Virus record (IMG/VR): IMGVR_UViG_3300032770_001049
Coordinates: 1 to 32,704 of that record
Strand: one strand, 5' to 3'
DNA from: a virus
DNA length: 32,704 nucleotides
Shown here in pieces: positions 12,365 to 29,603 of this stretch; position 1 is the first letter of the stretch, and the number at the start of each line of letters is the position of its first letter. A model generated the notes under the pieces. The model saw only the letters and a list, made by a program, of their open reading frames with translations, was not told the DNA's origin and did not search any database. Both the position numbers and the translations under genes were made by a program.

Positions 12365-12511
12365 ATGAAAATTGGGAACATGCAAAAAAGACCGTTTAGA
12401 GCCTGTTTAAATTTCGCAAGGTTCAACGATCTCGAATTTTCCGTATGTGCATGCAAGCAGCTTCCCGAACCGCTTAAATCGCCTTATTTACGATTACCTA
12501 TAACTGATTAG
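12365..12511 (+). CDS. Possible 48-residue ORF in the gp36-portal gap
   Basis: The 190-bp gap between gp36 and portal contains an ATG at 12365 followed by 48 codons. Its TAG stop overlaps by one base a GTG at 12511 that is in frame with the portal. The product (MKIGNMQKRPFRACLNFARF and on) has no recognised motif and base composition is not clearly coding. It may be real and coupled, or chance. Confidence 0.2.
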   Translation: MKIGNMQKRPFRACLNFARFNDLEFSVCACKQLPEPLKSPYLRLPITD

Positions 12512-12525
12512 TGAAACCTGAAACC
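12512..12525 (+). repeat. Heptanucleotide tandem array 5 (2 units)
   Basis: Two TGAAACC units directly before the portal ATG at 12532. The same unit precedes the gp37-like gene at 15721. If GTG 12511 were used as start, the array would be coding (KPETSP). Confidence 0.65.
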
Positions 12526-12531
12526 TCACCA

Positions 12532-13818
12532 ATGGCCGCAACTAAGAAAGAAGAAATCATTACCACTCCCACCGGAACTGACAAAGGGTTAATCGTTCAG
12601 CAGATCACCGTGAGGCCCGTCGTGCGAACGCGTTCTGATATAGCGATGTGGCGCTCCGCAACCATCGAAAGTGACTGGAGCCTGTGGCAGATTCGCGTCC
12701 GTCTTTACGATTTATATGAGGATTGTCTGCTCGATCCCGTGCTCAGTGATCAGATCGATAAAGCACACATCGCCGTCACCGGAAGCAAGCTGCAATTCAT
12801 GCGCGATGGTGAGGAAGTGGACGAGATCAAAGCACTCATCGAAACGGAAGCCTTCGATGAAATGCTGAAAGAAATCGTGAACACCATCCTCTGGGGTTAC
12901 TCCGTATTCGAGTTTTCTTTCGATCCCGAATTTTCAGTGGTTAGTCTTCCGCGTAAGCACATCCGTCCGCTTGCCGGTGAGATTGCGAAAGAGCAATACG
13001 ATGCCACAGGAATTCCTTATCGCGTTCCTCCCGCAAGCAATTTCATCATCGAATGCGGTAAGCAGCGTGATCTCGGCAAGTTGCTCAAAGCAGTACCGTA
13101 TGCACTCTATAAACGCGGAGGCATGGCTGACCTCGCACAGTTCAGTGAGATTTTTGGGCAACCGATCAGGGTAGCCAAATATGATGCGAGCAATGCGCAG
13201 GCACGTGCAGAAGTGCAGAAGGTGCTGGACGAAGCCGGTGCGGCACTTGCCATCACCATTCCGAAAGAGGTTGAGCTGGAATTGAAATCGCCCACAGCCA
13301 ACATCACCGGTGAAGTGTACAAAACGCAGATCGACATCTGCGATAAGCAAATGATGATCCTCATCAACGGACAAACGGAAACCACCATGTCCAGCAACAG
13401 CAGCGGATATGCGCAGAGCAAAACGCACATGGAAACGGCTGATGAGATCAAAGAAAATGTCCGCAAGTACGTAGCGCGCATTCTCAATAGCAAGGTGAGA
13501 GCGCTGCTCGATCTGCATGGTTTCCCGGTGAAAGGCGGCGAGTTCAAGTTTGTAAAAGATGAAGAAGAAATTGCGGCCACAGATAAAATTGTGATCTGGA
13601 ATACCGTGAAAAATATGGGCGTTCCCATCGGTGACGATGATGTGTATGAAGAATTCGGAATTCCCAAACCGAAAGATTACACGGCGCAGAAAGCACAGAA
13701 AGACCAGGAGCGCCAGCAGCAGCTGGATGCAAACAATCAGCAAATGCGGATGATCCATCTCCCGGCTAAAAAGTTCTTCAAGCACCTCTCAGATTTTTTC
13801 GCGCGCGCCCCGAAGTAA
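12532..13818 (+). CDS. Portal protein (Mu gp29-like, DUF935)
   Basis: A 428-residue portal from ATG at 12532; an in-frame GTG at 12511 would add seven residues. The DUF935 pattern is clear: DIAMWRSATIESDWSLWQIR, then LLDPVLSDQIDKAHIAVTGS, LWGYSVFEFSF, PRKHIRPLAGEI and FIIECGKQRDLGKLLKAVPY, and a helical C-terminus with GYAQSKTHMETADEIKENVR. The portal is the dodecameric DNA gate of the head and binds terminase and head-tail connectors. It precedes MuF, as in Mu. Its stop codon lies inside a small hairpin. Confidence 0.88.
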   Translation: MAATKKEEIITTPTGTDKGLIVQQITVRPVVRTRSDIAMWRSATIESDWSLWQIRVRLYDLYEDCLLDPVLSDQIDKAHIAVTGSKLQFMRDGEEVDEIKALIETEAFDEMLKEIVNTILWGYSVFEFSFDPEFSVVSLPRKHIRPLAGEIAKEQYDATGIPYRVPPASNFIIECGKQRDLGKLLKAVPYALYKRGGMADLAQFSEIFGQPIRVAKYDASNAQARAEVQKVLDEAGAALAITIPKEVELELKSPTANITGEVYKTQIDICDKQMMILINGQTETTMSSNSSGYAQSKTHMETADEIKENVRKYVARILNSKVRALLDLHGFPVKGGEFKFVKDEEEIAATDKIVIWNTVKNMGVPIGDDDVYEEFGIPKPKDYTAQKAQKDQERQQQLDANNQQMRMIHLPAKKFFKHLSDFFARAPK

Positions 13819-16976: not shown

Positions 16977-17593
16977 CAGGGTTTAGTTATGTTCGGGTTT
17001 GGTGATGCGTTGGCTGGCTTTTTCACCCAGTCCACTATTGATCCGCCCACTTTCACGGCTTCGTAGCCAGCCTCTCGCAGTTGCTTCCAGTACTCCGAGA
17101 GGGCTGCTCCCGTCAATGTTTGCTCCTGCTTGCGGGAGTAGATAATGGGTTTCGGATCATGCCTGTGAAAATAACGATCACGCAATTCATTATAGTACTT
17201 TCGTAGATTCTGAATGCTCCACTTTCCTTTCCAGTCGAAGAAATCGCTTGTGAAATAAAACGTTAGCAGCTCTTCGTTTACATCCATGTCGCTCATCATG
17301 CGCCCCTGGATGTTGCTCGCTTTGTACTTGAGTCCGCGATGCTTCTCATAAAGGCGGCAGAACAGAGCCACTTTTTCATTCGTCTTCAAAGCATGTTTAA
17401 CTTCCAGTCCAATGGATTCTAAATGCGAGATGTTCACTTCATCAAAAGGAATCTCTTTCATCAGTGCATCCCATTGCGCCTCGGTGATCTTTTCCATCTC
17501 GTTGATGAAACTGTAGATCACACCATCACGATAAGCAAGCAGCAGCTTGCCATTATATCGCCGTGAATGAAGAACGTATTTGGTGAGGTTCAT
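16976..17593 (-). CDS. Unknown protein coupled to the DGR operon
   Basis: A 205-residue protein of unknown function. The first half is mixed (VLHSRRYNGKLLLAYRDGVI, EAQWDALMKEIPFDE). The second half is helical and basic (KWSIQNLRKYYNELRDRYFH, LSEYWKQLREAGYEAVK). No catalytic motif is recognised. It overlaps both neighbours (ATGA at 17590-17593, TGATG at 16974-16978), so it is translated together with the reverse transcriptase and the 98-residue protein. That makes it a candidate DGR accessory protein, but it could equally be an ordinary early phage gene that shares the transcript. Confidence 0.5.
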   Translation of the reverse strand: MNLTKYVLHSRRYNGKLLLAYRDGVIYSFINEMEKITEAQWDALMKEIPFDEVNISHLESIGLEVKHALKTNEKVALFCRLYEKHRGLKYKASNIQGRMMSDMDVNEELLTFYFTSDFFDWKGKWSIQNLRKYYNELRDRYFHRHDPKPIIYSRKQEQTLTGAALSEYWKQLREAGYEAVKVGGSIVDWVKKPANASPNPNITKP

Positions 17594-17886
17594 GAAAATT
17601 CAAATCGTTCGTTATCCTTAATGATCGTAGTGGTAAAAGGAAATTTCTCCTTCGGCACTTTCAGTATTTGTTCTGTTAGATAAATAGCTCCGGTGAACAG
17701 CACATACTTAATATCGCTGATGCTCAGTTGCAGTTGCAGGCATTTCTTCGCATCACCAAATTTCGAATCGGTAATGCGGTAATCATGAATCGTGATCTCA
17801 CGGTTCAGGATTTTTGCCATCTTGATTTTGTCGCCGATGAAGTTTGGCAGCGATGGCTTGATGTCGAATTCACTGAATTTATTCAT
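17590..17886 (-). CDS. Small protein immediately downstream of DGR reverse transcriptase (accessory candidate)
   Basis: A 98-residue protein whose ATG overlaps the reverse transcriptase stop (ATGA). The sequence is beta-rich (ILNREITIHDYRITDSKFGD, KCLQLQLSISDIKYVLFTGA, KFPFTTTIIKDNERFEF), compatible with an OB-like or single-strand nucleic acid binding fold. It does not look like Avd, the known four-helix accessory protein of DGRs. I recall similar small proteins beside Bacteroides DGR reverse transcriptases, but cannot verify that here. A role in template RNA or cDNA handling is inference from tight coupling. Confidence 0.55.
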   Translation of the reverse strand: MNKFSEFDIKPSLPNFIGDKIKMAKILNREITIHDYRITDSKFGDAKKCLQLQLSISDIKYVLFTGAIYLTEQILKVPKEKFPFTTTIIKDNERFEFS

Positions 17887-18842
17887 ACAGTTTGGTTGAG
17901 AAGTTTTTTGAGTAAATGATTTGTGTCAGCGTGCGCAGCCCATCCATTGTACGAAGCGATGGAAGCTGCATTTTTATTCCGGGCAATCATGCGCGCAAAA
18001 TTCTGCTTGATGGATTTACGCAGGCGCGTATGCGTGTGATAGAAAACATAACCGACAAAATCAATTCCGCGTGCAGTAACAGGTAAGACCTGGTAATTAT
18101 TTTTCACAGTCAGCCGCAATTGCGATTGCAAATAATTTTTGATGTCATTCAACAATTGATGAAGTGCATCTTTATCAGAGTGCAGGATCACGATGTCATC
18201 AGCATAGCGGAAATAATATTTCACTCGTTTGATTTCTTTCAGCCAGTGATCGAAAGGAGTGAGATAAAAGTTTGCGAAATACTGGCTCAGGTAATTTCCA
18301 ATCGGCACACCCTCGGCGCTGTCGATAATTTCATCCAGCAACCAAAGTAGATCAGCATCCTTGAATTTTCTGCGCAGTAATGCTTTCAGAATTTCATGAT
18401 CGATGCTCGGATAAAATTTTCTGATGTCGAGCTTCAAACAATATTGTGTGCCGTCCACATCCTTCAGCGCATCGCGCACAGCATAAGCAGCACCGTGAAT
18501 GCCGCGACCTTTGATGCAACTGTACGTATCGGCAGTGAACATGCTCGTGAAAATGGGTTCCAGAACATTCATCACCGCATGGTGAATAATCCGGTCAGGA
18601 AAATAGGGTAAACGGAATATCAATCGTTCTTTTGGTTCGTGAATGATGAAGGTGGTGTAGGGAGAAGTGAAGTATGTTTTTGCTTTCAGCATCACATGAA
18701 GTGCATGAATGTTCTTCTTTCTGTTCTTATCATGCTGCTGCACTCCATATTGATGCGCCTTACGTTTGCGCGCGCGCTCATCAGCGAGATTCAGGTTCTC
18801 GATGTTGTAGATTTTTTCGTAGAGGTTTGATAATCGTTTCAT
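17883..18842 (-). CDS. DGR reverse transcriptase
   Basis: A 319-residue reverse transcriptase that would copy the template repeat RNA with errors at adenines. Visible motifs: an N-terminal segment NLYEKIYNIENLNLADERAR, SCIKGRGIHGAA (about 108-119), YCLKLDIRKFYPSI with catalytic Asp139, GVPIGNYLSQYFANFYL (178-194), where the IGNYLSQ form is the hallmark of DGR enzymes, YFRYADDIVIL with Asp215/Asp216, and GIDFVGYVFY. The C-terminus has SIASYNGWAAHAD. An upstream ATG at 19050-19052 is in frame, but that extension is the template repeat read through, so ATG at 18840-18842 is chosen; ATG 18945-18947 is possible. The stop overlaps the next gene. Confidence 0.93.
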   Translation of the reverse strand: MKRLSNLYEKIYNIENLNLADERARKRKAHQYGVQQHDKNRKKNIHALHVMLKAKTYFTSPYTTFIIHEPKERLIFRLPYFPDRIIHHAVMNVLEPIFTSMFTADTYSCIKGRGIHGAAYAVRDALKDVDGTQYCLKLDIRKFYPSIDHEILKALLRRKFKDADLLWLLDEIIDSAEGVPIGNYLSQYFANFYLTPFDHWLKEIKRVKYYFRYADDIVILHSDKDALHQLLNDIKNYLQSQLRLTVKNNYQVLPVTARGIDFVGYVFYHTHTRLRKSIKQNFARMIARNKNAASIASYNGWAAHADTNHLLKKLLNQTV

Positions 18843-18946
18843 CAGCCTTTGCTTTAAGAAGTCGCTTTCACTCTCATTACTCACGCCTTCATTTGGTATT
18901 CGTGATTTTTTGCCCTGGCTGGCATGGTCTGCATTGCATTTGTTCA

Positions 18947-19021
18947 TTTGCATAGGTGGGAGCTGACGTTCGTGTTCGTGTTCCAGTGATCGTAGTTCGT
19001 GTTCGAGAAGCCGAAACCGGC
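18947..19021 (-). other. DGR template repeat (TR)
   Basis: Read on the minus strand this repeat would encode AGFGFSNTNYDHWNTNTNV in the frame of the target genes, with AAC and ACG codons concentrated in the middle. The 68-nt core (18954-19021) aligns without gaps with both variable repeats. The core has 18 adenines on the coding strand; 13 are changed in one variable repeat and 12 in the other. All other 50 positions are identical in all three copies. It lies 105 bp upstream of the reverse transcriptase start, in the same orientation, in the untranslated leader. Confidence 0.95.
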
Positions 19022-19064
19022 ATCCGTACTCCGCCGCTCTTGCAATGCACAACCTGAGTTCATT

Positions 19065-19454
19065 TTATTCCTGAATCAAAAAATAATCGATGTACAATTT
19101 TTCAAACTGCTTCGCCGCGTACAATGCGAGTTCCGAGGATCGAAAGCAAAGGCGGGAGCCGACGCCCGTGTCCGTGCCCCAGAGAGCGAAGTCCGTGACC
19201 GAGAAGCCGAAACCGGCAGGTTTCTTTTCACTGGCTTTTACTACGAACCAGGGATAATACTTCCATTCATTATCATCATTCCAATTTGGTTGCCATCCCT
19301 CATTTAATGCTTCGGTAATGATGATTAATTTACTGTGAGCGATGAGTGCAGCTTGATGTTTTTTCGGCATTGCCGAAACATCCGGCAGCACTTTTTTTGC
19401 ATCGAGTTTAAGAGCCTTGCAGGCATCTTCAAATGTTTTGATCGTGCTTTTCAT
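19065..19454 (-). CDS. DGR target protein 1
   Basis: A 129-residue soluble protein with no signal peptide or membrane segment. The N-terminal part (KTFEDACKALKLDAK, then HSKLIIITEALNEGWQPNWN and EWKYYPWFVV) is shared with the second target, and the C-terminal part contains the variable repeat. The order of segments (PWF, GFGFS, variable stretch, VGSRLCF, a terminal helix with YAAKQFEKLY) resembles the C-type-lectin-like fold of DGR targets. Variable residues fall at the surface loop before VGSRL. The gene ends 43 bp before the template repeat. What it binds is unknown; it is placed in the early operon and not near tail genes. Confidence 0.9.
   Translation of the reverse strand: MKSTIKTFEDACKALKLDAKKVLPDVSAMPKKHQAALIAHSKLIIITEALNEGWQPNWNDDNEWKYYPWFVVKASEKKPAGFGFSVTDFALWGTDTGVGSRLCFRSSELALYAAKQFEKLYIDYFLIQE
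19150..19217 (-). repeat. DGR variable repeat 1 (VR1)
   Basis: In target 1 this encodes AGFGFSVTDFALWGTDTGVG. Compared with the template core it has 13 differences, all at template adenines (nine A to G, three A to T, one A to C). Confidence 0.95.
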
Positions 19455-19485
19455 TGTGATTGTTTTATGGTTTTAGTGAAAAAAA

Positions 19486-19974
19486 TCAGAGTGAGAGAAA
19501 ATCATTGTAAATGCTCTCAAATTGTTTCCCTGCGTATTCCGCTAACGCTTCCGTTTTGAAGCAAAGGCGGGAGCCGACGTTCGTGTTCGCGGGCCAGCGA
19601 ACGCAGCCCGAGTGCGAGAAGCCGAAACCGGCTTTCATTTTAAACCAGGGAAACCATTTATATTGATTGGTGTCATTCCAATCCGGTGTCCATCCTTCAT
19701 TGAGTGCGCGGGCAATGATGATAAGTTTGCAATAGGCTTCAATTGATTTTGCATCCTTACTTATATCATGTATGTGAATATTCACATCGCCACTCGATTT
19801 CTCATCGTTTATGCCTAATACTTCACAAGCGTCTTCAAAAGTTTTTACGCGATCTGTGATGTCAGTGAATAGGTTTTTCTCACCGAAAAGAGTTGCCAGA
19901 AGTATTTTCTCGCTGGGCGTTCCCCTCTTGTACGCCGCAATGGCGTTTGATTTTAATACCTGTAATGTGTCCAT
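19486..19974 (-). CDS. DGR target protein 2
   Basis: A 162-residue paralogue of target 1 with an extra N-terminal segment (MDTLQVLKSNAIAAYKRGTP, LLATLFGEKNLF). The shared region (VKTFEDACEVLGI, CKLIIIARALNEGWTPDWND, YKWFPWFKM) is followed by the variable stretch, VGSRLCFK and a helix AEYAGKQFESIYNDF. It is separated from target 1 by 31 bp and read in the same direction. The N-terminal segment predicted as helical could serve to anchor or multimerise the protein. Both targets belong to a widespread Bacteroidota type of short DGR target whose ligand is unknown. Confidence 0.9.
   Translation of the reverse strand: MDTLQVLKSNAIAAYKRGTPSEKILLATLFGEKNLFTDITDRVKTFEDACEVLGINDEKSSGDVNIHIHDISKDAKSIEAYCKLIIIARALNEGWTPDWNDTNQYKWFPWFKMKAGFGFSHSGCVRWPANTNVGSRLCFKTEALAEYAGKQFESIYNDFLSL
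19565..19632 (-). repeat. DGR variable repeat 2 (VR2)
   Basis: In target 2 this encodes AGFGFSHSGCVRWPANTNVG. Compared with the template core it has 12 differences, all at template adenines (seven A to G, three A to C, two A to T). VR1 and VR2 differ from each other at 13 positions. Confidence 0.95.
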
Positions 19975-22068: not shown

Positions 22069-23823
22069 TTAGAATTTTGCTGCTGTTTCAGTATAAGGAG
22101 AGATGGTGAATGGCGCCATAATGCGAACGGAATATTGCATCGCATTATCGCCGAGTGAATTCCCCTGCAGCACTTCCATTCGTGTCACCGGCAAAAGGTA
22201 ACCATCTACGCTAACATAGCTGATCGGATATGTATTGCCGGTAGGATTGTCGATGATGATCCAGCCGTGATGCGTGATGGGATCGACGCTTCCAATCGCA
22301 TTATCGCATGGAGTAATGGCAATCGAATAATGATTTCCCTCCGTGAAATAGTGCCCCACCATCTTCAGCTCATCGTATACATAATTAGTTTCAATGGGAT
22401 AGTTACTGCCGAGCGATGATGTATAAGCGGTCGTTTCAGGATGCACATCTCCGAGGTTCCAGTACATCGAGCTGGCGATAAGATCGTCTTCAGCATAATC
22501 CAGGTCGATCTCGTGCATCTTGTAAAGCATACCTTCATGTGCGTCGAGAAATGTTCCGGCGATGGGCAGTCCGTCATTCGGGCCAAAGCCCCATTCCGTG
22601 ATGCTCACCGGCAGATGGAAGAAAGCATTCATCCAATGCACATCATTGCTCATGGAAGTGGTCGCCGCAAAATCGAGCGAATCTTTCATCACCTGCGCCG
22701 ACCAGTTCTGTTGCGGCGGCGTTACGCAGAGCTGAATGAAAGGAAGATAATCACGTACGGCAGTGAAAGTGGACATGCCCACGATGGCATTATTAAACGA
22801 ACTCGTATAGTTTGAGCGCCTGATCTGATCAGCATCCATCGTAAACTGCGGTGAAGGGAAATTCGTGAACAGATCCGTCGCAATCGGAGCGACGGTATTC
22901 TTGTAGCTCGTGCCATTGCCGCAGAACACGCAATTATTGTAGCTCTTGTTTGTTTCCTGTCCGAGAATCAATTCATCAATCGGGCAGTACGTGTTCGCCC
23001 AGTTCAGCGCATTGATATTGTTTAGTGAATTGTAATGCTGCACATTGATGGTGACAGAAAGGTTTGCATGCCGCGATGAGACGAATGAAACGGCGCTCGG
23101 CCAGAAGTCGGCAGCATAACTCGTGTAACAATTACTCGAAGTATTTTTTGCATTGCAGTCGTAGCCGCCATTGCCGGTCTTCATTCCCGGAGTCACAGCT
23201 CCAAACACAAAGAGATAATCGAGAGCAGGAACGCCGCCGCCGAAATTGTACGTAGCCCAGCCGAGTGAATCACAGTTGCTTTCAAACGGCTCGGTGTTGA
23301 TGTCGAAGTAACGCGTGCCGTTGTTTTGTGTTTTCTCCAGCGTCACCTTCCACAGTTTCCGATTCACCGGCTGTGAAGTGGAAGCCATCATAAAATCGGT
23401 GAGCGGCGCCAGCGTGTCGGCATATCCGGCAGGAGCTGTGGCAGAGCAGGTGCGCACCGTATCAGCGGGAGAGTCGCCGAATCCGTCACCGTTGGCATCT
23501 ACATAATAGAGATACGTGGTGAGACCTTCGTCAACCAATCCGTCGCAATCATCATCGAGTGAATCGCAGATTTCAGTTGCACCCGGATGCACATTTGCAT
23601 TGTTGTCATTGCAGTCGGTGTGATTGCTCACGTAACCGACTGGTGTCGTTTTTGCCAGTGTGAAAAGTGAATCATTACCATAACCATCGCGATCACCATC
23701 AAACCAAAAGGTATCTCGCTTTGCCTGGTTATTTCTCCATGGGAAAATGTGTTGTGCTCGTGCATGTTGAGCATCGCTGCAAAGGGCTGAGGTAAGCAGC
23801 AGGAAGAAAAGAACTGATTTCAT
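22069..23823 (-). CDS. Secreted MopE-type metal-binding / glycosidase-like cargo protein
   Basis: A 584-residue secreted protein. It begins with a signal peptide (KSVLFFLLLTSALCSDAQ). Residues about 40-125 carry the MopE-type metal-binding repeat (DGDRDGYG, DCNDNNANVHPGATEICD, DDDCDGLVDEG, then DANGDGFGD), common in Bacteroidota exported proteins. From about 150 a TIM-barrel glycoside-hydrolase-like domain follows: DELILGQETN and VSITEWGFGPNDG each hold a candidate catalytic glutamate. No type IX secretion tail is visible at the end. It has no role in phage replication and sits between Gam and HD hydrolase, flanked by hairpins, so it looks like a lysogenic-conversion cargo gene (moron). Confidence 0.75.
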   Translation of the reverse strand: MKSVLFFLLLTSALCSDAQHARAQHIFPWRNNQAKRDTFWFDGDRDGYGNDSLFTLAKTTPVGYVSNHTDCNDNNANVHPGATEICDSLDDDCDGLVDEGLTTYLYYVDANGDGFGDSPADTVRTCSATAPAGYADTLAPLTDFMMASTSQPVNRKLWKVTLEKTQNNGTRYFDINTEPFESNCDSLGWATYNFGGGVPALDYLFVFGAVTPGMKTGNGGYDCNAKNTSSNCYTSYAADFWPSAVSFVSSRHANLSVTINVQHYNSLNNINALNWANTYCPIDELILGQETNKSYNNCVFCGNGTSYKNTVAPIATDLFTNFPSPQFTMDADQIRRSNYTSSFNNAIVGMSTFTAVRDYLPFIQLCVTPPQQNWSAQVMKDSLDFAATTSMSNDVHWMNAFFHLPVSITEWGFGPNDGLPIAGTFLDAHEGMLYKMHEIDLDYAEDDLIASSMYWNLGDVHPETTAYTSSLGSNYPIETNYVYDELKMVGHYFTEGNHYSIAITPCDNAIGSVDPITHHGWIIIDNPTGNTYPISYVSVDGYLLPVTRMEVLQGNSLGDNAMQYSVRIMAPFTISPYTETAAKF

Positions 23824-23911: not shown

Positions 23912-24442
23912 TTAATTGAGTTCTTCTTTGGGTTTCACATAAAAGGTTTCATCCTGATCCACATACACACCCACCTTATGGAATTTTGCATTCACGGTAG
24001 GTTCCGTTGCATTGCTGAGCAGTGAATCTTTATCCACTTCCTCTTTGATGCGCACGAATTCGGGAAGCAGGTTTTTTAGATTCGCGAGTACGTTTTCCCA
24101 CTTGAATCCTTTTGCCAGCTTCAGCTTCGGCGTTCCGGTTCTGAACCCGATGATGCCGTGAGTGAGTTCAAGACTCTTGCGGTCTTTGAATTGCTCCGGG
24201 TTCGTTTCAGCGTAATGCTGGAGCAGCTCGAACTTCGCATCCATCACGGCTTGCCATTTGTCCAGCTCGGCGGTGAATTCATTTCTCACCTCGATGATCT
24301 TTAATTCCATCTTGGCGGTTTTCTTTTTGAACTGGCTATTTGCCTCTGCATATTCGCCGAGGATTTTGTCTGCCTCTTCAATGCTGATGCTCTCCTTCAG
24401 CAAGGTTTTTTTTCTTCGTCCGATGATTGTTTCCATTTTCAT
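23912..24442 (-). CDS. gam: Gam-like host-nuclease inhibitor
   Basis: A 176-residue protein of the Mu Gam family, which binds double-strand DNA ends and protects them from exonucleases. The pattern is clear: a long helical hairpin (about 18-75, EADKILGEYAEANSQFKKKT and AELDKWQAVMDAKFELLQHY), then a compact part with THGIIGFRTGTPKLKLAKGF and a beta-rich end VGVYVDQDETFYV. Mu Gam has a similar length and lies in the early region too. Start is ATG at 24440-24442; ATG two codons later is an alternative. Confidence 0.85.
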   Translation of the reverse strand: MKMETIIGRRKKTLLKESISIEEADKILGEYAEANSQFKKKTAKMELKIIEVRNEFTAELDKWQAVMDAKFELLQHYAETNPEQFKDRKSLELTHGIIGFRTGTPKLKLAKGFKWENVLANLKNLLPEFVRIKEEVDKDSLLSNATEPTVNAKFHKVGVYVDQDETFYVKPKEELN

Positions 24443-24468: not shown

Positions 24469-24876
24469 CTATTTTCCTATGAGCACCGGCTCAAGTGTTT
24501 TCTTAAATTTCTCGAAGCTCGTCCGGTATATTTCGCTGCAAAAAACACGATCACGATGTGCTTGTCTCGCGTGAATGATGGTGCTGTGATCACGGCCGAG
24601 AATCCTTCCCTGTGCCACGAGCGAAACTTCAGGAAGCAGCTCTTGAGCTAATCCGGCAATCATCGCACGTGATCGTGCGAGCGGTTCAGTTCGCGATTTG
24701 CTGAGTAATTCGGTTTCACTTATTGACCATGCTTCGCAAACTTTTTCGATGATCAATCGAAACTTCGAGGGAAGCGAAACGATCTTCCCTGTTTTGGCAT
24801 TTTGCAGCTGCGCTTTCAATGTTTTCAGCTCCATCTCAAGGATGGCGATGCGTGATTTAAGTAGTTCTTCGTTCAT
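24469..24876 (-). CDS. DnaA domain IV-like DNA-binding protein
   Basis: A 135-residue protein: an N-terminal coiled coil (ILEMELKTLKAQLQNA) then a domain that matches the DNA-binding domain IV of DnaA. Diagnostic are the helix pattern ETELLSKSRTEPLARSRAMI, AQELLPEVSLVAQGRILG and RDHSTIIHARQAH, where GRDHST is the DnaA-box recognition motif. The ATPase domain of DnaA is absent. In a transposable phage it may bind DnaA boxes of host or phage, to titrate host DnaA or to recruit replication proteins after strand transfer. The function is inference. The start overlaps the upstream gene. Confidence 0.78.
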   Translation of the reverse strand: MNEELLKSRIAILEMELKTLKAQLQNAKTGKIVSLPSKFRLIIEKVCEAWSISETELLSKSRTEPLARSRAMIAGLAQELLPEVSLVAQGRILGRDHSTIIHARQAHRDRVFCSEIYRTSFEKFKKTLEPVLIGK

Positions 24877-26451: not shown

Positions 26452-26529
26452 TTAAAAAATCGTAATAGTTGTTTTCAATCTCAGGTCTTCGATTTCTATT
26501 TCATCACTCAATTGATAAAGCCACATCAT
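26452..26529 (-). CDS. Possible small coupled ORF, perhaps frameshifted
   Basis: In the 127-bp gap after the MuB-like gene an ATG overlaps the MuB stop (ATGA) and opens 25 codons (MMWLYQLSDEIEIEDLRLK and on). The -1 frame continues without a stop to 26429 and reads IENNYYDFLTPYEEED, a typical protein end. A single-base change or frameshift would join them into a protein of about 33 residues. The gap shows no other feature. Confidence 0.3.
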   Translation of the reverse strand: MMWLYQLSDEIEIEDLRLKTTITIF

Positions 26530-27437
26530 GCTGCGATTGAATCCATGTCACCAACATTGAGTGAAATGAGCACTTGCAATTGTGTCATTCCTTCTTTATC
26601 CGCTATTGAGTAATTGTCCATCAGTTCACGCAGTGTGCCCATGTCACTGCATATCCTCTGTACATAATCTATAGCATCTTCTTCCGTAATGCTGTAGATG
26701 CTGCAAATCTTATCGATGGTTCCTTTCTGCACCTGGTAAACAGGTTGCCAGTAGCCGATCCGCCTCTTCAGCTCAGGAAAACAACTTTTTCCTTTAGCCG
26801 CCATCTTGAGTATATAATTCTTTAATCGCTCTGTACCGCAGAGCACAATACCACATCGGCGCTCCAGTGATTCAGTGAATTGTTGGAGAATTTCATAAAG
26901 GGCATCGTTGCCCTTATGCATGCTGTCGAAAATCAGCAGTGGATTCTCTACCTTGTTATTGAGAAAATCAAAGATGAAAGCCATGCGCTGACTAATACTC
27001 CCCTCCACGTCCTTGCCTATAGCCCGCATCACTTTATTGAGAAGCTCTTTCACGCTCATGCCTTTTTCAATAAGAACGTAATAAGCATTGCGGGCATCCT
27101 TTTTATTAATGTACTTCTTGAGCGCTTCCGTTTTTCCCGCGCCGGTATAGCCAATCACGGCGAGTGTACGGTGGTTGCGCTTGGCATCAGCGCACAGCGC
27201 CTGAATAGCATTGTAAGTTTTGGTGGTGAGAATGGGCCAATCGGTTGCAGAAAAGCCACACCAATTTGCAGCACGCCTCCACATGTTATCTCCAATGCTA
27301 TCCCACTTTTTATTCACCATTTGGCTGAGCGTTCCGGGACTGATCATCATTTGTGCAGCAGCCTGATTATTGCTATCGGCGCTTTCAAGTTTCTGTGTGA
27401 GCAGTTCGTGAATTTTGTTTTTGTCGTCGAGATTCAT
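26526..27437 (-). CDS. MuB-like transposition ATPase
   Basis: A 303-residue AAA+ ATPase that in Mu delivers the target DNA to the transposase and gives target immunity. The N-terminal 60 residues hold a helix-turn-helix (AAAQMMISPGTLSQMVNKKW) as in MuB. Walker A is GYTGAGKT (96-103) and Walker B is NPLLIFDS. A sensor-like region (GIVLCGTERLKNYIL) follows. The C-terminal helical part ends with GMTQLQVLISLNVGD. It lies downstream of the transposase with one small gene between. Start is ATG at 27435-27437. Confidence 0.87.
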   Translation of the reverse strand: MNLDDKNKIHELLTQKLESADSNNQAAAQMMISPGTLSQMVNKKWDSIGDNMWRRAANWCGFSATDWPILTTKTYNAIQALCADAKRNHRTLAVIGYTGAGKTEALKKYINKKDARNAYYVLIEKGMSVKELLNKVMRAIGKDVEGSISQRMAFIFDFLNNKVENPLLIFDSMHKGNDALYEILQQFTESLERRCGIVLCGTERLKNYILKMAAKGKSCFPELKRRIGYWQPVYQVQKGTIDKICSIYSITEEDAIDYVQRICSDMGTLRELMDNYSIADKEGMTQLQVLISLNVGDMDSIAA

Positions 27438-27716: not shown

Positions 27717-29603
27717 TTAGTCTTCAGCAATTTTTATTTCATCGTCCTCATCACCGCTGAGGTAAATGCTTTCAGCTTTCAGCTTTAGCTCTTTGGGTGC
27801 CAGCTCACCGGCGCGAATGATGTCATCCACACTCCATCCGGCTGCCGCGCGTATGTCTTCCAGTGCATCCTCTGTCGTCTGCCGCTGCTGCTCGCGCACT
27901 TTCATTCTGCGCCTGATCTTTTCCTGGTCTCCTTCACGCATGTCGGCAACGGCGCGCGGGGTGCCATCCTTTTCGTAAGCAATGGCCACAAATCGCAGAT
28001 CACCGGTTGCATCGCGTTTGTAGAGATAGATGTGACTCAGATCGTCCGCATCGTACTTCACGACAAACCGGTCGCGGATCAGCGACAGATCGGGGTTGCC
28101 TTCGGAATCCGTCACTTCATACTGCAAGTCTTTTCTGCCTTTGATCACCGGCTTGATTCCACCGGGATAGTATGTGATCTCTTCCGTGGTATTGTAAAAC
28201 AGTTCCACCATGTCAAAGCGGCTCACCGGTTGCGCCTCGGCATTGATCGAAGAAGCATACTGTTCAGCACGTGTGCAATCGAAGCGCGGATGTTTCCTGT
28301 TATTCCACTCTTCCACGCAGCTCTCGGCAATGCGAATGATCTCCTGCACTGAGGGCAGTTCAGATTTGTGAGCATCGTAGAAATCTTTGTTCACTTTACT
28401 GTCTTCGCTTTTTGTGGTCACATTCATGCCGGTGAAGAACCAGTACTGGCTCATCACTTGTTTCTGAAATCGTCCGATGATCCGCTCGATGTGTTTTGAT
28501 TCGGCATTGTATGGTTTGGCAGCGAAGTGGACTTTAGCAAGCTGATTGAAGAAGTGTTTTGCCTGCGCTCCTTTGTGTCCGCCCTGGTTATCGTAGAGAA
28601 CCTGATAAGGTTTGTGTCCGCTCTTCTTTAAAGCACGTTTGAATGCACGCTGCTGCACGGTAAAATCTTCGCTGCTGTTGCTGAAATCGTAGCCGAGTAT
28701 CATTTCACTGTGCACGTCTACCACGAAGTACATGTTCAGCTCGGCACGGAATCCGCTCGTGAAGAAGTTGAGTTTTGTTCCGTCACCTTCCCACAGTGCA
28801 TCGCGGAAACTGGGCGGCACGATCCGGTTCTTATGCTCATAGCGCAGTCTCCAGCTCTTCCATCCGTGTTTGCCGAGCCACCACAGCGGTTCCACATCGG
28901 CGCGATGCAGGTAAGCGTACACGCATTGTTCCGTCACCTGATCCCATCCGCGTTTAGCAGCTTCACTTAGATATTGAAGAGTGAGTGATGTGGTGTCGCA
29001 CGCTAATTTGAGAGGAGAAGCGTACTGCGCGATCAGCCATTGCTTCGCTTCTTCCGTGAGCTTCTCAGAATTATTGTTACCGAATTTTTTACTGATCAGA
29101 ACTCTGTACCCCTGCTCTTTATATTCCTTGATGCGCGGATAAAGTTTTTTCACGCTGCATGGCAGGTCAACTTTCTTCTGCTCAATGAGTGCAATGGCGG
29201 CATTCAGAAATTGTTCTTTCGACAATCCGGTCTTCTTGCATACATCTTTTGCATTCACGAGCAAATTGAGCCATTGCGCAGCCGTGGTGTATTGTTCGAT
29301 GTGCTGCTGCGGAAGCCCGGTGCCGTCGTTCAATTTGTATTCTGAAAAGAATGTTCGTGCGGCGTGATCGGGTTCGAGGTGAGAGAGGAGGATGGTGTGA
29401 GAGAGAAAAGCAAGAACTTTTTCCTTGTACTGATCCTTCATGGTATCAAAGCATACCAGTAAACCATAAGGTGGTTCCGGATCATCCATGAACTGAAAAG
29501 AAGAGAACGAAAGAGCTTTCGCACGCTTCAATGTATTAGATGAAATGCCGCTCTCGACAGCGGTCTTCCATTCAATCCATTTTTTTTCTTCAATTAACTT
29601 CAT
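27717..29603 (-). CDS. MuA-like DDE transposase
   Basis: A 628-residue transposase that joins phage ends to target DNA. An N-terminal DNA-binding region (about 1-200, with helix-rich segments) precedes the catalytic RNase H fold. The DDE residues are visible: Asp274 in LWEGDGTKLNFF, Asp338 in YQVLYDNQGGHKG, and Glu373 in HIERIIGRF (Glu368 is an alternative). The second-to-third spacing is near 35, shorter than in MuA. A beta-barrel-like part (PVIKGRKDLQYEV, RFVVKYDADDLSHIYLYKRD) and a charged C-terminus with EDDEIKIAED follow. The C-terminal part of MuA contacts MuB. First large gene of the early operon. Confidence 0.92.
   Translation of the reverse strand: MKLIEEKKWIEWKTAVESGISSNTLKRAKALSFSSFQFMDDPEPPYGLLVCFDTMKDQYKEKVLAFLSHTILLSHLEPDHAARTFFSEYKLNDGTGLPQQHIEQYTTAAQWLNLLVNAKDVCKKTGLSKEQFLNAAIALIEQKKVDLPCSVKKLYPRIKEYKEQGYRVLISKKFGNNNSEKLTEEAKQWLIAQYASPLKLACDTTSLTLQYLSEAAKRGWDQVTEQCVYAYLHRADVEPLWWLGKHGWKSWRLRYEHKNRIVPPSFRDALWEGDGTKLNFFTSGFRAELNMYFVVDVHSEMILGYDFSNSSEDFTVQQRAFKRALKKSGHKPYQVLYDNQGGHKGAQAKHFFNQLAKVHFAAKPYNAESKHIERIIGRFQKQVMSQYWFFTGMNVTTKSEDSKVNKDFYDAHKSELPSVQEIIRIAESCVEEWNNRKHPRFDCTRAEQYASSINAEAQPVSRFDMVELFYNTTEEITYYPGGIKPVIKGRKDLQYEVTDSEGNPDLSLIRDRFVVKYDADDLSHIYLYKRDATGDLRFVAIAYEKDGTPRAVADMREGDQEKIRRRMKVREQQRQTTEDALEDIRAAAGWSVDDIIRAGELAPKELKLKAESIYLSGDEDDEIKIAED

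Follow-up and report, generated by a model that had tools for sequence, protein, structure and literature searches.

The locus considered here raises the question of what a diversity-generating retroelement (DGR) might diversify, and with which partner molecules, when it is located far from the tail genes of a prophage; this presupposes that the three repeats by which it was recognized stem from such an element at all. The window (the whole stretch of DNA that was analysed, 32,704 nucleotides of the IMG/VR record IMGVR_UViG_3300032770_001049) is a 32.7-kb virus contig with a Mu-like prophage of a Bacteroidota bacterium, and the following genes served as landmarks:

12511-13818: Mu portal gene
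23912-24442, minus strand: gene for Gam
26526-27437, minus strand: gene for a MuB-like ATPase
27717-29603, minus strand: gene for the Mu-type transposase (MuA)

Capsid, DUF2586 and tape-measure genes are also present on the record. The DGR cassette closes the transposition (early) operon of the minus strand at its downstream end, away from the tail genes and with MuA, MuB and Gam upstream of it on the same strand, and its elements follow each other in the direction of transcription as first target gene (162 aa), second target gene (129 aa), template repeat (TR), spacer, reverse transcriptase (RT) gene (319 aa) and a 98-aa accessory gene. The early operon also contains a gene for a 584-aa protein with a signal-like N-terminus and a MopE metal-binding motif (22069-23823, minus strand), which is likely a cargo gene, and one for a small protein with a DnaA C-terminal DNA-binding domain (24469-24876, minus strand). 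A host AlgH/YqgE gene is found at the contig end (32147-32704, minus strand), and the prophage-host junction probably lies at about 31.4-32.1 kb.

The repeats, comprising the TR and two variable repeats (VRs), were delimited as follows:

18948-19021, minus strand: TR, 74 nt with 21 adenines, from the repeat alignment and comparison with relatives
18965-19003, minus strand: diversifying zone of the TR, holding 16 adenines
18948-18964, minus strand: IMH* of the TR, from comparison with relatives
19144-19217, minus strand: VR1, within the second target gene, changed at 16 of 21 TR adenines and at 0 of 53 other sites
19144-19160, minus strand: IMH segment of VR1
19559-19632, minus strand: VR2, within the first target gene, changed at 15 of 21 TR adenines and at 0 of 53 other sites
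19559-19575, minus strand: IMH segment of VR2

The TR aligns without gaps to both VRs over 74 nt of the minus strand, and all 31 differences (16 in VR1 and 15 in VR2) fall on TR adenines, for which the hypergeometric probabilities are 3e-12 (VR1) and 3e-11 (VR2). In VR1 and VR2, respectively, A>G changes account for 9 and 7 of these differences, A>T changes for 6 and 5, and A>C changes for 1 and 3. The two VRs differ from each other at 13 sites, again at TR adenines only. Our recount agrees with the initial annotation, which had described a 68-nt core with 18 TR adenines, changed to G, C or T at 13 of 18 in VR1 and 12 of 18 in VR2, and 50 further positions that are the same in all three copies. 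It had attributed this pattern to adenine-specific mutagenic retrohoming into two targets fed by one template, a reading borne out by the DGR motifs of the RT, the position of the TR between targets and RT, the adenine-only differences, and the placement of both targets on one strand with each VR matching the same TR. The TR itself lies outside the target genes, while both VRs lie inside coding genes. A search for a third VR, proposed in the initial annotation, found none across the 32.7-kb record. That three copies are repeats of one another could in principle reflect an ordinary duplication, with point mutation or gene conversion acting afterwards. Yet the 31 of 31 differences on TR adenines (p about 1e-11 for each VR), together with the same adenine bias in relatives, reduce the probability of such an origin to practically nil; the base bias already refutes it.

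Not all TR adenines contribute to diversity. In 151 TR/VR pairs of related cassettes, TR adenines in the GSRLCF-coding segment always have one replacement base (A>G in 137 of 137 and in 134 of 134 pairs, A>T in 115 of 119), while A, G, T and C all occur at the AAY/ACG/TAY-type codon positions of the same 151 pairs. Being synonymous (CTA/CTT), the A>T change requires more than selection on the protein as an explanation. Judged from the aligned sequences, these fixed TR/VR differences are of the IMH/IMH* type rather than products of random mutagenesis: IMH and IMH* differ by fixed changes at three positions, seen in up to 137 of 137 pairs. In the window, the fixed set comprises 2 of the 18 core adenines (3 of 21 over 74 nt) plus the GCAA/GCTT end, all in the homing-initiation segment. 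BPP-1 carries 5 mismatches to the TR within a 21-bp part of its IMH (PMC3240598); there, the IMH/IMH* differences set the direction of transfer, and the family of the window has differences of the same kind. Because two of the 18 core adenines carry fixed IMH differences, 16 diversify, and the initial estimate of about 7e10 variants from 18 adenines has to be lowered to 4^16 = 4.3e9 nucleotide variants per target. These correspond to 15^5 x 4^6 = 3.1e9 protein variants per target, with stop codons impossible.

Fixed differences also affect TR adenines of the 5' edge in many relatives (A>G in 37 of 38, 48 of 50 and 75 of 76 cases, at positions -55, -54 and -48 from the GSRL codon), and one of these changes is synonymous. 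Such relatives thus have the exchanged segment marked by fixed changes on either side; the TR of the window has no adenine at the 5' edge positions. The adenines of AAY codons in the TRs of relatives are unevenly retained in several codons, the first in about 15-20% and the second in about 45-50% of cases, for which context bias of the RT and selection are two possible sources.

Downstream of the TR, the enzyme expected of a DGR is encoded:

17883-18842, minus strand: DGR RT gene, 319 aa when counted from the start codon that relatives share (RVT_1, E 1.4e-19; PHROG 1423 RT, E 1.8e-127)

The open frame of the RT extends to 19052, across the TR. The protein carries the DGR motif IGNYLSQ (SQ) and an intact catalytic YADD, and it groups with DGR RTs, its nearest named relatives being those of crAss-like phage DGRs. 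A profile search for Avd in the proteins of the window cassette and of the accessory-bearing loci gave no match; the same profile matches the four Avd cassettes of BPP-1, VP58.5, phiARM81mr and BalMu-1. DGRs of lineage 3 (CLec3) of Wu et al. are reported to lack avd and to have the order target-TR-RT and SRLC-type VR ends (PMC7290462). Going by that description, the DGR of the window matches lineage 3/CLec3 in RT similarity, missing Avd and SRLC-type VR end, an assignment that is based on these sequence features. The crAssphage LMMB and the crAss-like cr55_1 (lineage 3) resemble the window in an RT that is up to 57% identical, in the missing Avd, in the order target-TR-RT and in a VR ending in SRLC. 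CrAss-type DGRs target a single tail-collar protein whose VR occupies the extreme C-terminus, whereas in the window the VR is followed by helices in each of two small non-tail proteins. DGRs with several VRs make up about one in seven (PMC3521204) and those with two targets 13% (PMC10743442). The DGRs of the gut phages nd4 and nd12 also feed two targets from one TR (PMC10743442), but there the two proteins differ in topology, while those of the window are small paralogues. Since DGRs with multiple VRs and the lineage-3 class have already been described, the element in the window is a genuine DGR of a known kind; new or under-described are its linked accessory gene, the structure of its spacer and its conserved pair of non-tail targets. 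The initial annotation had called positions 18947-19632 a complete DGR with a textbook mutation pattern. The repeats and their adenine pattern uphold this description, but the RT gene (17883-18842), the spacer and the accessory gene (17590-17886) lie outside this segment, and the term textbook conceals both the Avd-less type and the position of the targets outside the tail module.

A homologue of the accessory gene required in BPP-1 is absent from about a quarter of DGRs (PMC7290462), and two further elements of the cassette bear on how an Avd-less DGR might work. The first of these is an RNA:

18841-18951, minus strand: spacer RNA between TR and RT, with a hairpin (TGCC..GGCA) and a second, bulged stem-loop (model R1, 77 bits)

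The spacer has a length of ~105 nt and is conserved across 55 cassettes. RNAalifold proposes a structure of 12 pairs, all 12 of which show compensatory changes; 96.5% of cells are compatible with pairing versus 81% after shuffling and at most 42% after sliding, and covariation amounts to 0.54 versus 0.22. The structure is visible from the alignment only, as folding the window spacer alone is uninformative (z -0.44), and a comparison of the spacer with Rfam gave no match. The spacer model finds a match directly upstream of the RT in each of the 12 independent genomes, with E values of about 2e-10 or lower. Its matches in crAss-like, archaeal and Lactobacillus phage DGRs are weak, all of them in front of the RT and, in the crAss-like DGRs, at the expected place. 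The spacer of BPP-1 recruits RT and Avd and serves in cDNA priming (PMC12875486); by analogy, the spacer in the window likely has the same role.

The second element is a small gene at the end of the cassette:

17590-17886, minus strand: accessory gene, 98 aa, OB-fold-like, its start overlapping the RT stop (ATGA)

Hits of the accessory profile lie directly behind the RT in 196 of 196 cases (all loci), and so do 79 of 79 viral hits from a search that did not involve the RT, with one edge case excluded. When RT and accessory gene were searched independently in 396 whole genomes, the same 12 genomes carried both and none carried one alone. In hankyphage (Bacteroides phage p00; locus L232, 2523-3827), the accessory domain is a C-terminal fusion to the RT (residues 328-434, or 328-423 in the match with E 1.8e-10). 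The archaeal viruses ANMV-1 and vir525 have an accessory homologue directly behind the RT, and in some crAss-type cassettes a diverged accessory gene lies between target and TR (hhalign E 4e-5), the position held by Avd in BPP-1.

The accessory protein was modelled with the order strand-strand-strand-helix-strand-strand (pLDDT 88.6). Its fold matches, weakly, the OB domains of HIN-200 DNA sensors (best PDB E 0.2, TM 0.41); a sequence comparison with PDB gave nothing significant. The protein may be a nucleic-acid-binding partner of the RT that takes the place of Avd. Its OB-like gene might instead be an ordinary phage nucleic-acid-binding gene that came to lie next to the RT by chance; small genes are numerous in phage early operons, the link to the RT comes from sequence comparison and the fold match is weak. 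The fusion to the RT in hankyphage, the occurrence in DGRs of archaeal viruses and of unrelated phages whose targets are of other types, and the finding of the gene without an RT in 0 of 396 whole genomes and 0 of 79 testable viral contigs make such a chance neighbourhood highly improbable, and we retain a dedicated RT partner as our reading. According to a review, a further DGR-linked protein, left unnamed there and lacking a Pfam family, had been put forward by Wu et al. 2018 (NAR). Since this protein may be the same gene, priority for the association of the accessory gene with DGRs is uncertain.

Other well-studied systems share part of this arrangement with the window. Hankyphage (PMC6199706) is likewise a transposable Bacteroidota phage with the same accessory domain, but it has one annotated VR in one target region, and its accessory domain is fused to the RT rather than separate. 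ANMV-1 (PMC4372165) has its accessory homologue behind the RT as in the window, yet differs in its Mtd-like target AdtA, its 114-bp repeats and its archaeal host. BPP-1 has adenine mutagenesis, the order TR-spacer-RT and the IMH/IMH* logic in common with the window; unlike the window, it carries Avd between target and TR and a single tail-fibre target, lacks the OB-like accessory gene and yields no match to the spacer model. In BPP-1, a DNA hairpin with a GRNA loop immediately downstream of the VR is needed as well.

We regard it as about 90% probable that the early operon of this Mu-like prophage harbours an Avd-less, functional-looking DGR, in which RT and accessory protein bind the TR-spacer RNA and an adenine-mutated cDNA replaces the VR of either target. 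In such a mechanism, the TR-spacer transcript would be bound by the RT and the accessory protein; the spacer would place the RNA and, by analogy with BPP-1, prime cDNA synthesis. The RT would then misincorporate opposite template adenines, the mutated cDNA would be exchanged for the VR of either target with entry at the IMH segment, and the fixed TR/VR differences in the IMH would keep the transfer one-way. A joint action of spacer RNA and accessory protein with the RT is what we infer. An accessory protein that is exclusive to the RT and fused to it in hankyphage, combined with a covarying RNA, offers a concrete and testable answer to the question of how Avd-less DGRs work.

Relatives of the cassette allowed us to assess whether DGRs of this family diversify. 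Target and RT searches of IMG/VR and GTDB genomes yielded about 130 loci. The layout target-target-TR-RT recurs among them, the VRs being offset from the TR by about 194 and 607 nt, and about 70 related cassettes share it; these counts are conditioned on the adenine pattern, as the layout scan was restricted to adenine-only repeat pairs. Because that scan itself selects such pairs, an unconditioned check was run in which 12 genomes were picked by the RT alone and 14 repeat pairs were matched blind to the base. Adenines make up 190 of the 770 sites but received 117 of the 124 mismatches. In each of the 12 genomes the layout is conserved, with two or more targets plus the accessory gene.

Between two contigs of one phage (L015 and L024), 17 of 62 VR adenines differ, as do 3 of the 182 remaining VR positions, while the 86 TR sites show no difference and the 3747 flanking sites one; the corresponding values for L022 and L029 are 9 of 51, 0 of 119, 0 of 87 and 9 of 2762, and for the prophages of Elizabethkingia miricola and E. 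occulta (L016 and L132) 23 of 40, 0 of 123, 0 of 82 and 67 of 2153. Even L013 and L018, with flanks about 11% apart, have identical TRs and differ at 23 of 45 VR adenines and 0 of 124 other VR sites. The expectation that variation is confined to the VR adenines thus holds in relatives of the window phage, on which this check was made, and the DGR family is active in nature because near-identical relatives differ almost only at these positions.

The cassette of the window itself might nevertheless be decayed, its repeats recording past activity and no current diversification. Exact DNA pattern searches of the viral collection found no sister copies of the window TR, and hence no sister genome with different VRs. 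Decay does occur in the family: in a Chitinophagaceae MAG (L125, 6276-7019), TR, spacer RNA and two targets are kept, while RT and accessory gene are lost. (This type of DGR is present in about 3%, i.e., 12 of 396, of the genomes of the family to which L125 belongs.) In the window, on the other hand, the RT frame with its YADD and SQ motifs, the spacer stems, the accessory gene and both target frames are intact. In addition, the non-adenine VR sites still match the TR (0 of 53 different in each VR), where drift would be expected without retrohoming, and close relatives are active. We therefore deem decay improbable and consider the cassette to be functional-looking.

What this DGR diversifies is a pair of small proteins:

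19065-19454, minus strand: second (TR-proximal) target gene, 129 aa, phrog_11581
19486-19974, minus strand: first target gene, 162 aa, phrog_11581, with an extra N-terminal helical part of ~38 aa

The family phrog_11581, to which both belong, is annotated as of unknown function, and searches of the targets and of the accessory protein against Pfam and NCBIfam gave no match. In a tree of 147 targets with the VR masked, first and second targets are largely separate (17 label changes versus 56 in shuffles), and the second target of the window groups, with a support of 99, in a set in which 27 of 28 rows are second targets. According to this tree, the target pair is made up of old paralogues that arose by a duplication and were kept in order, and this speaks for two roles. 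The AlphaFold model of the target (mean pLDDT 85) is confident except for the VR loop. A fold search against PDB gave no match, and the significant matches in BFVD are all uncharacterised phage proteins.

By position, the VR-bearing target proteins of the window are not tail genes, and we infer that they are binding proteins with a task in the cell, or at any rate not in the tail. As viral DGRs mostly target tail proteins (PMC8144416), both could also be virion receptor-binding (tail) proteins of which only the gene position is unusual. The Bacteroides phage Versailles bears on this in two ways. Its single TR matches an adenine-only VR in the adjoining tail protein and another VR in a phrog_11581 protein 43 kb away (L239, 2621-2739, and L234, 5368-5482). 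One TR with two such VRs implies that the VR segment and a lectin-type one of a tail protein can stand in for each other, as a tail function would have it, and lends a C-type-lectin (CLec) fold of the VR domain indirect support; yet the phrog_11581 protein of Versailles has recombination and replication genes as its neighbours. The targets of the window likewise belong to the transposition/early operon, at a distance from the tail genes, have no tail domain in their 129 and 162 aa, and find only uncharacterised proteins as fold matches in BFVD. We thus consider a tail function to be rather unlikely.

Our own, tentative proposal, to which we give somewhat less than even odds, is that Avd-less DGRs of this type are a distinct machine, consisting of RT, OB-fold protein and structured spacer RNA, that diversifies a co-evolving early non-virion pair in transposable phages of Bacteroidota and thereby serves intracellular or lysogeny-related recognition and not adsorption. 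A conserved, hypervariable pair of early proteins points to a use of phage DGRs beyond tail change. A relative of the target family in BI-TP1 was considered as a live DGR target (the BI-TP1/LoVEphage idea) and was discarded, the RT of BI-TP1 being broken. Extra target-family genes or VRs are located several kb from the cassette in L039 (1140-1538) and L131 (1641-2252), each with an adenine-only VR of the same TR, and a further target-family gene or VR lies several kb off the cassette in genome G272 (C15:1933060-1933512).
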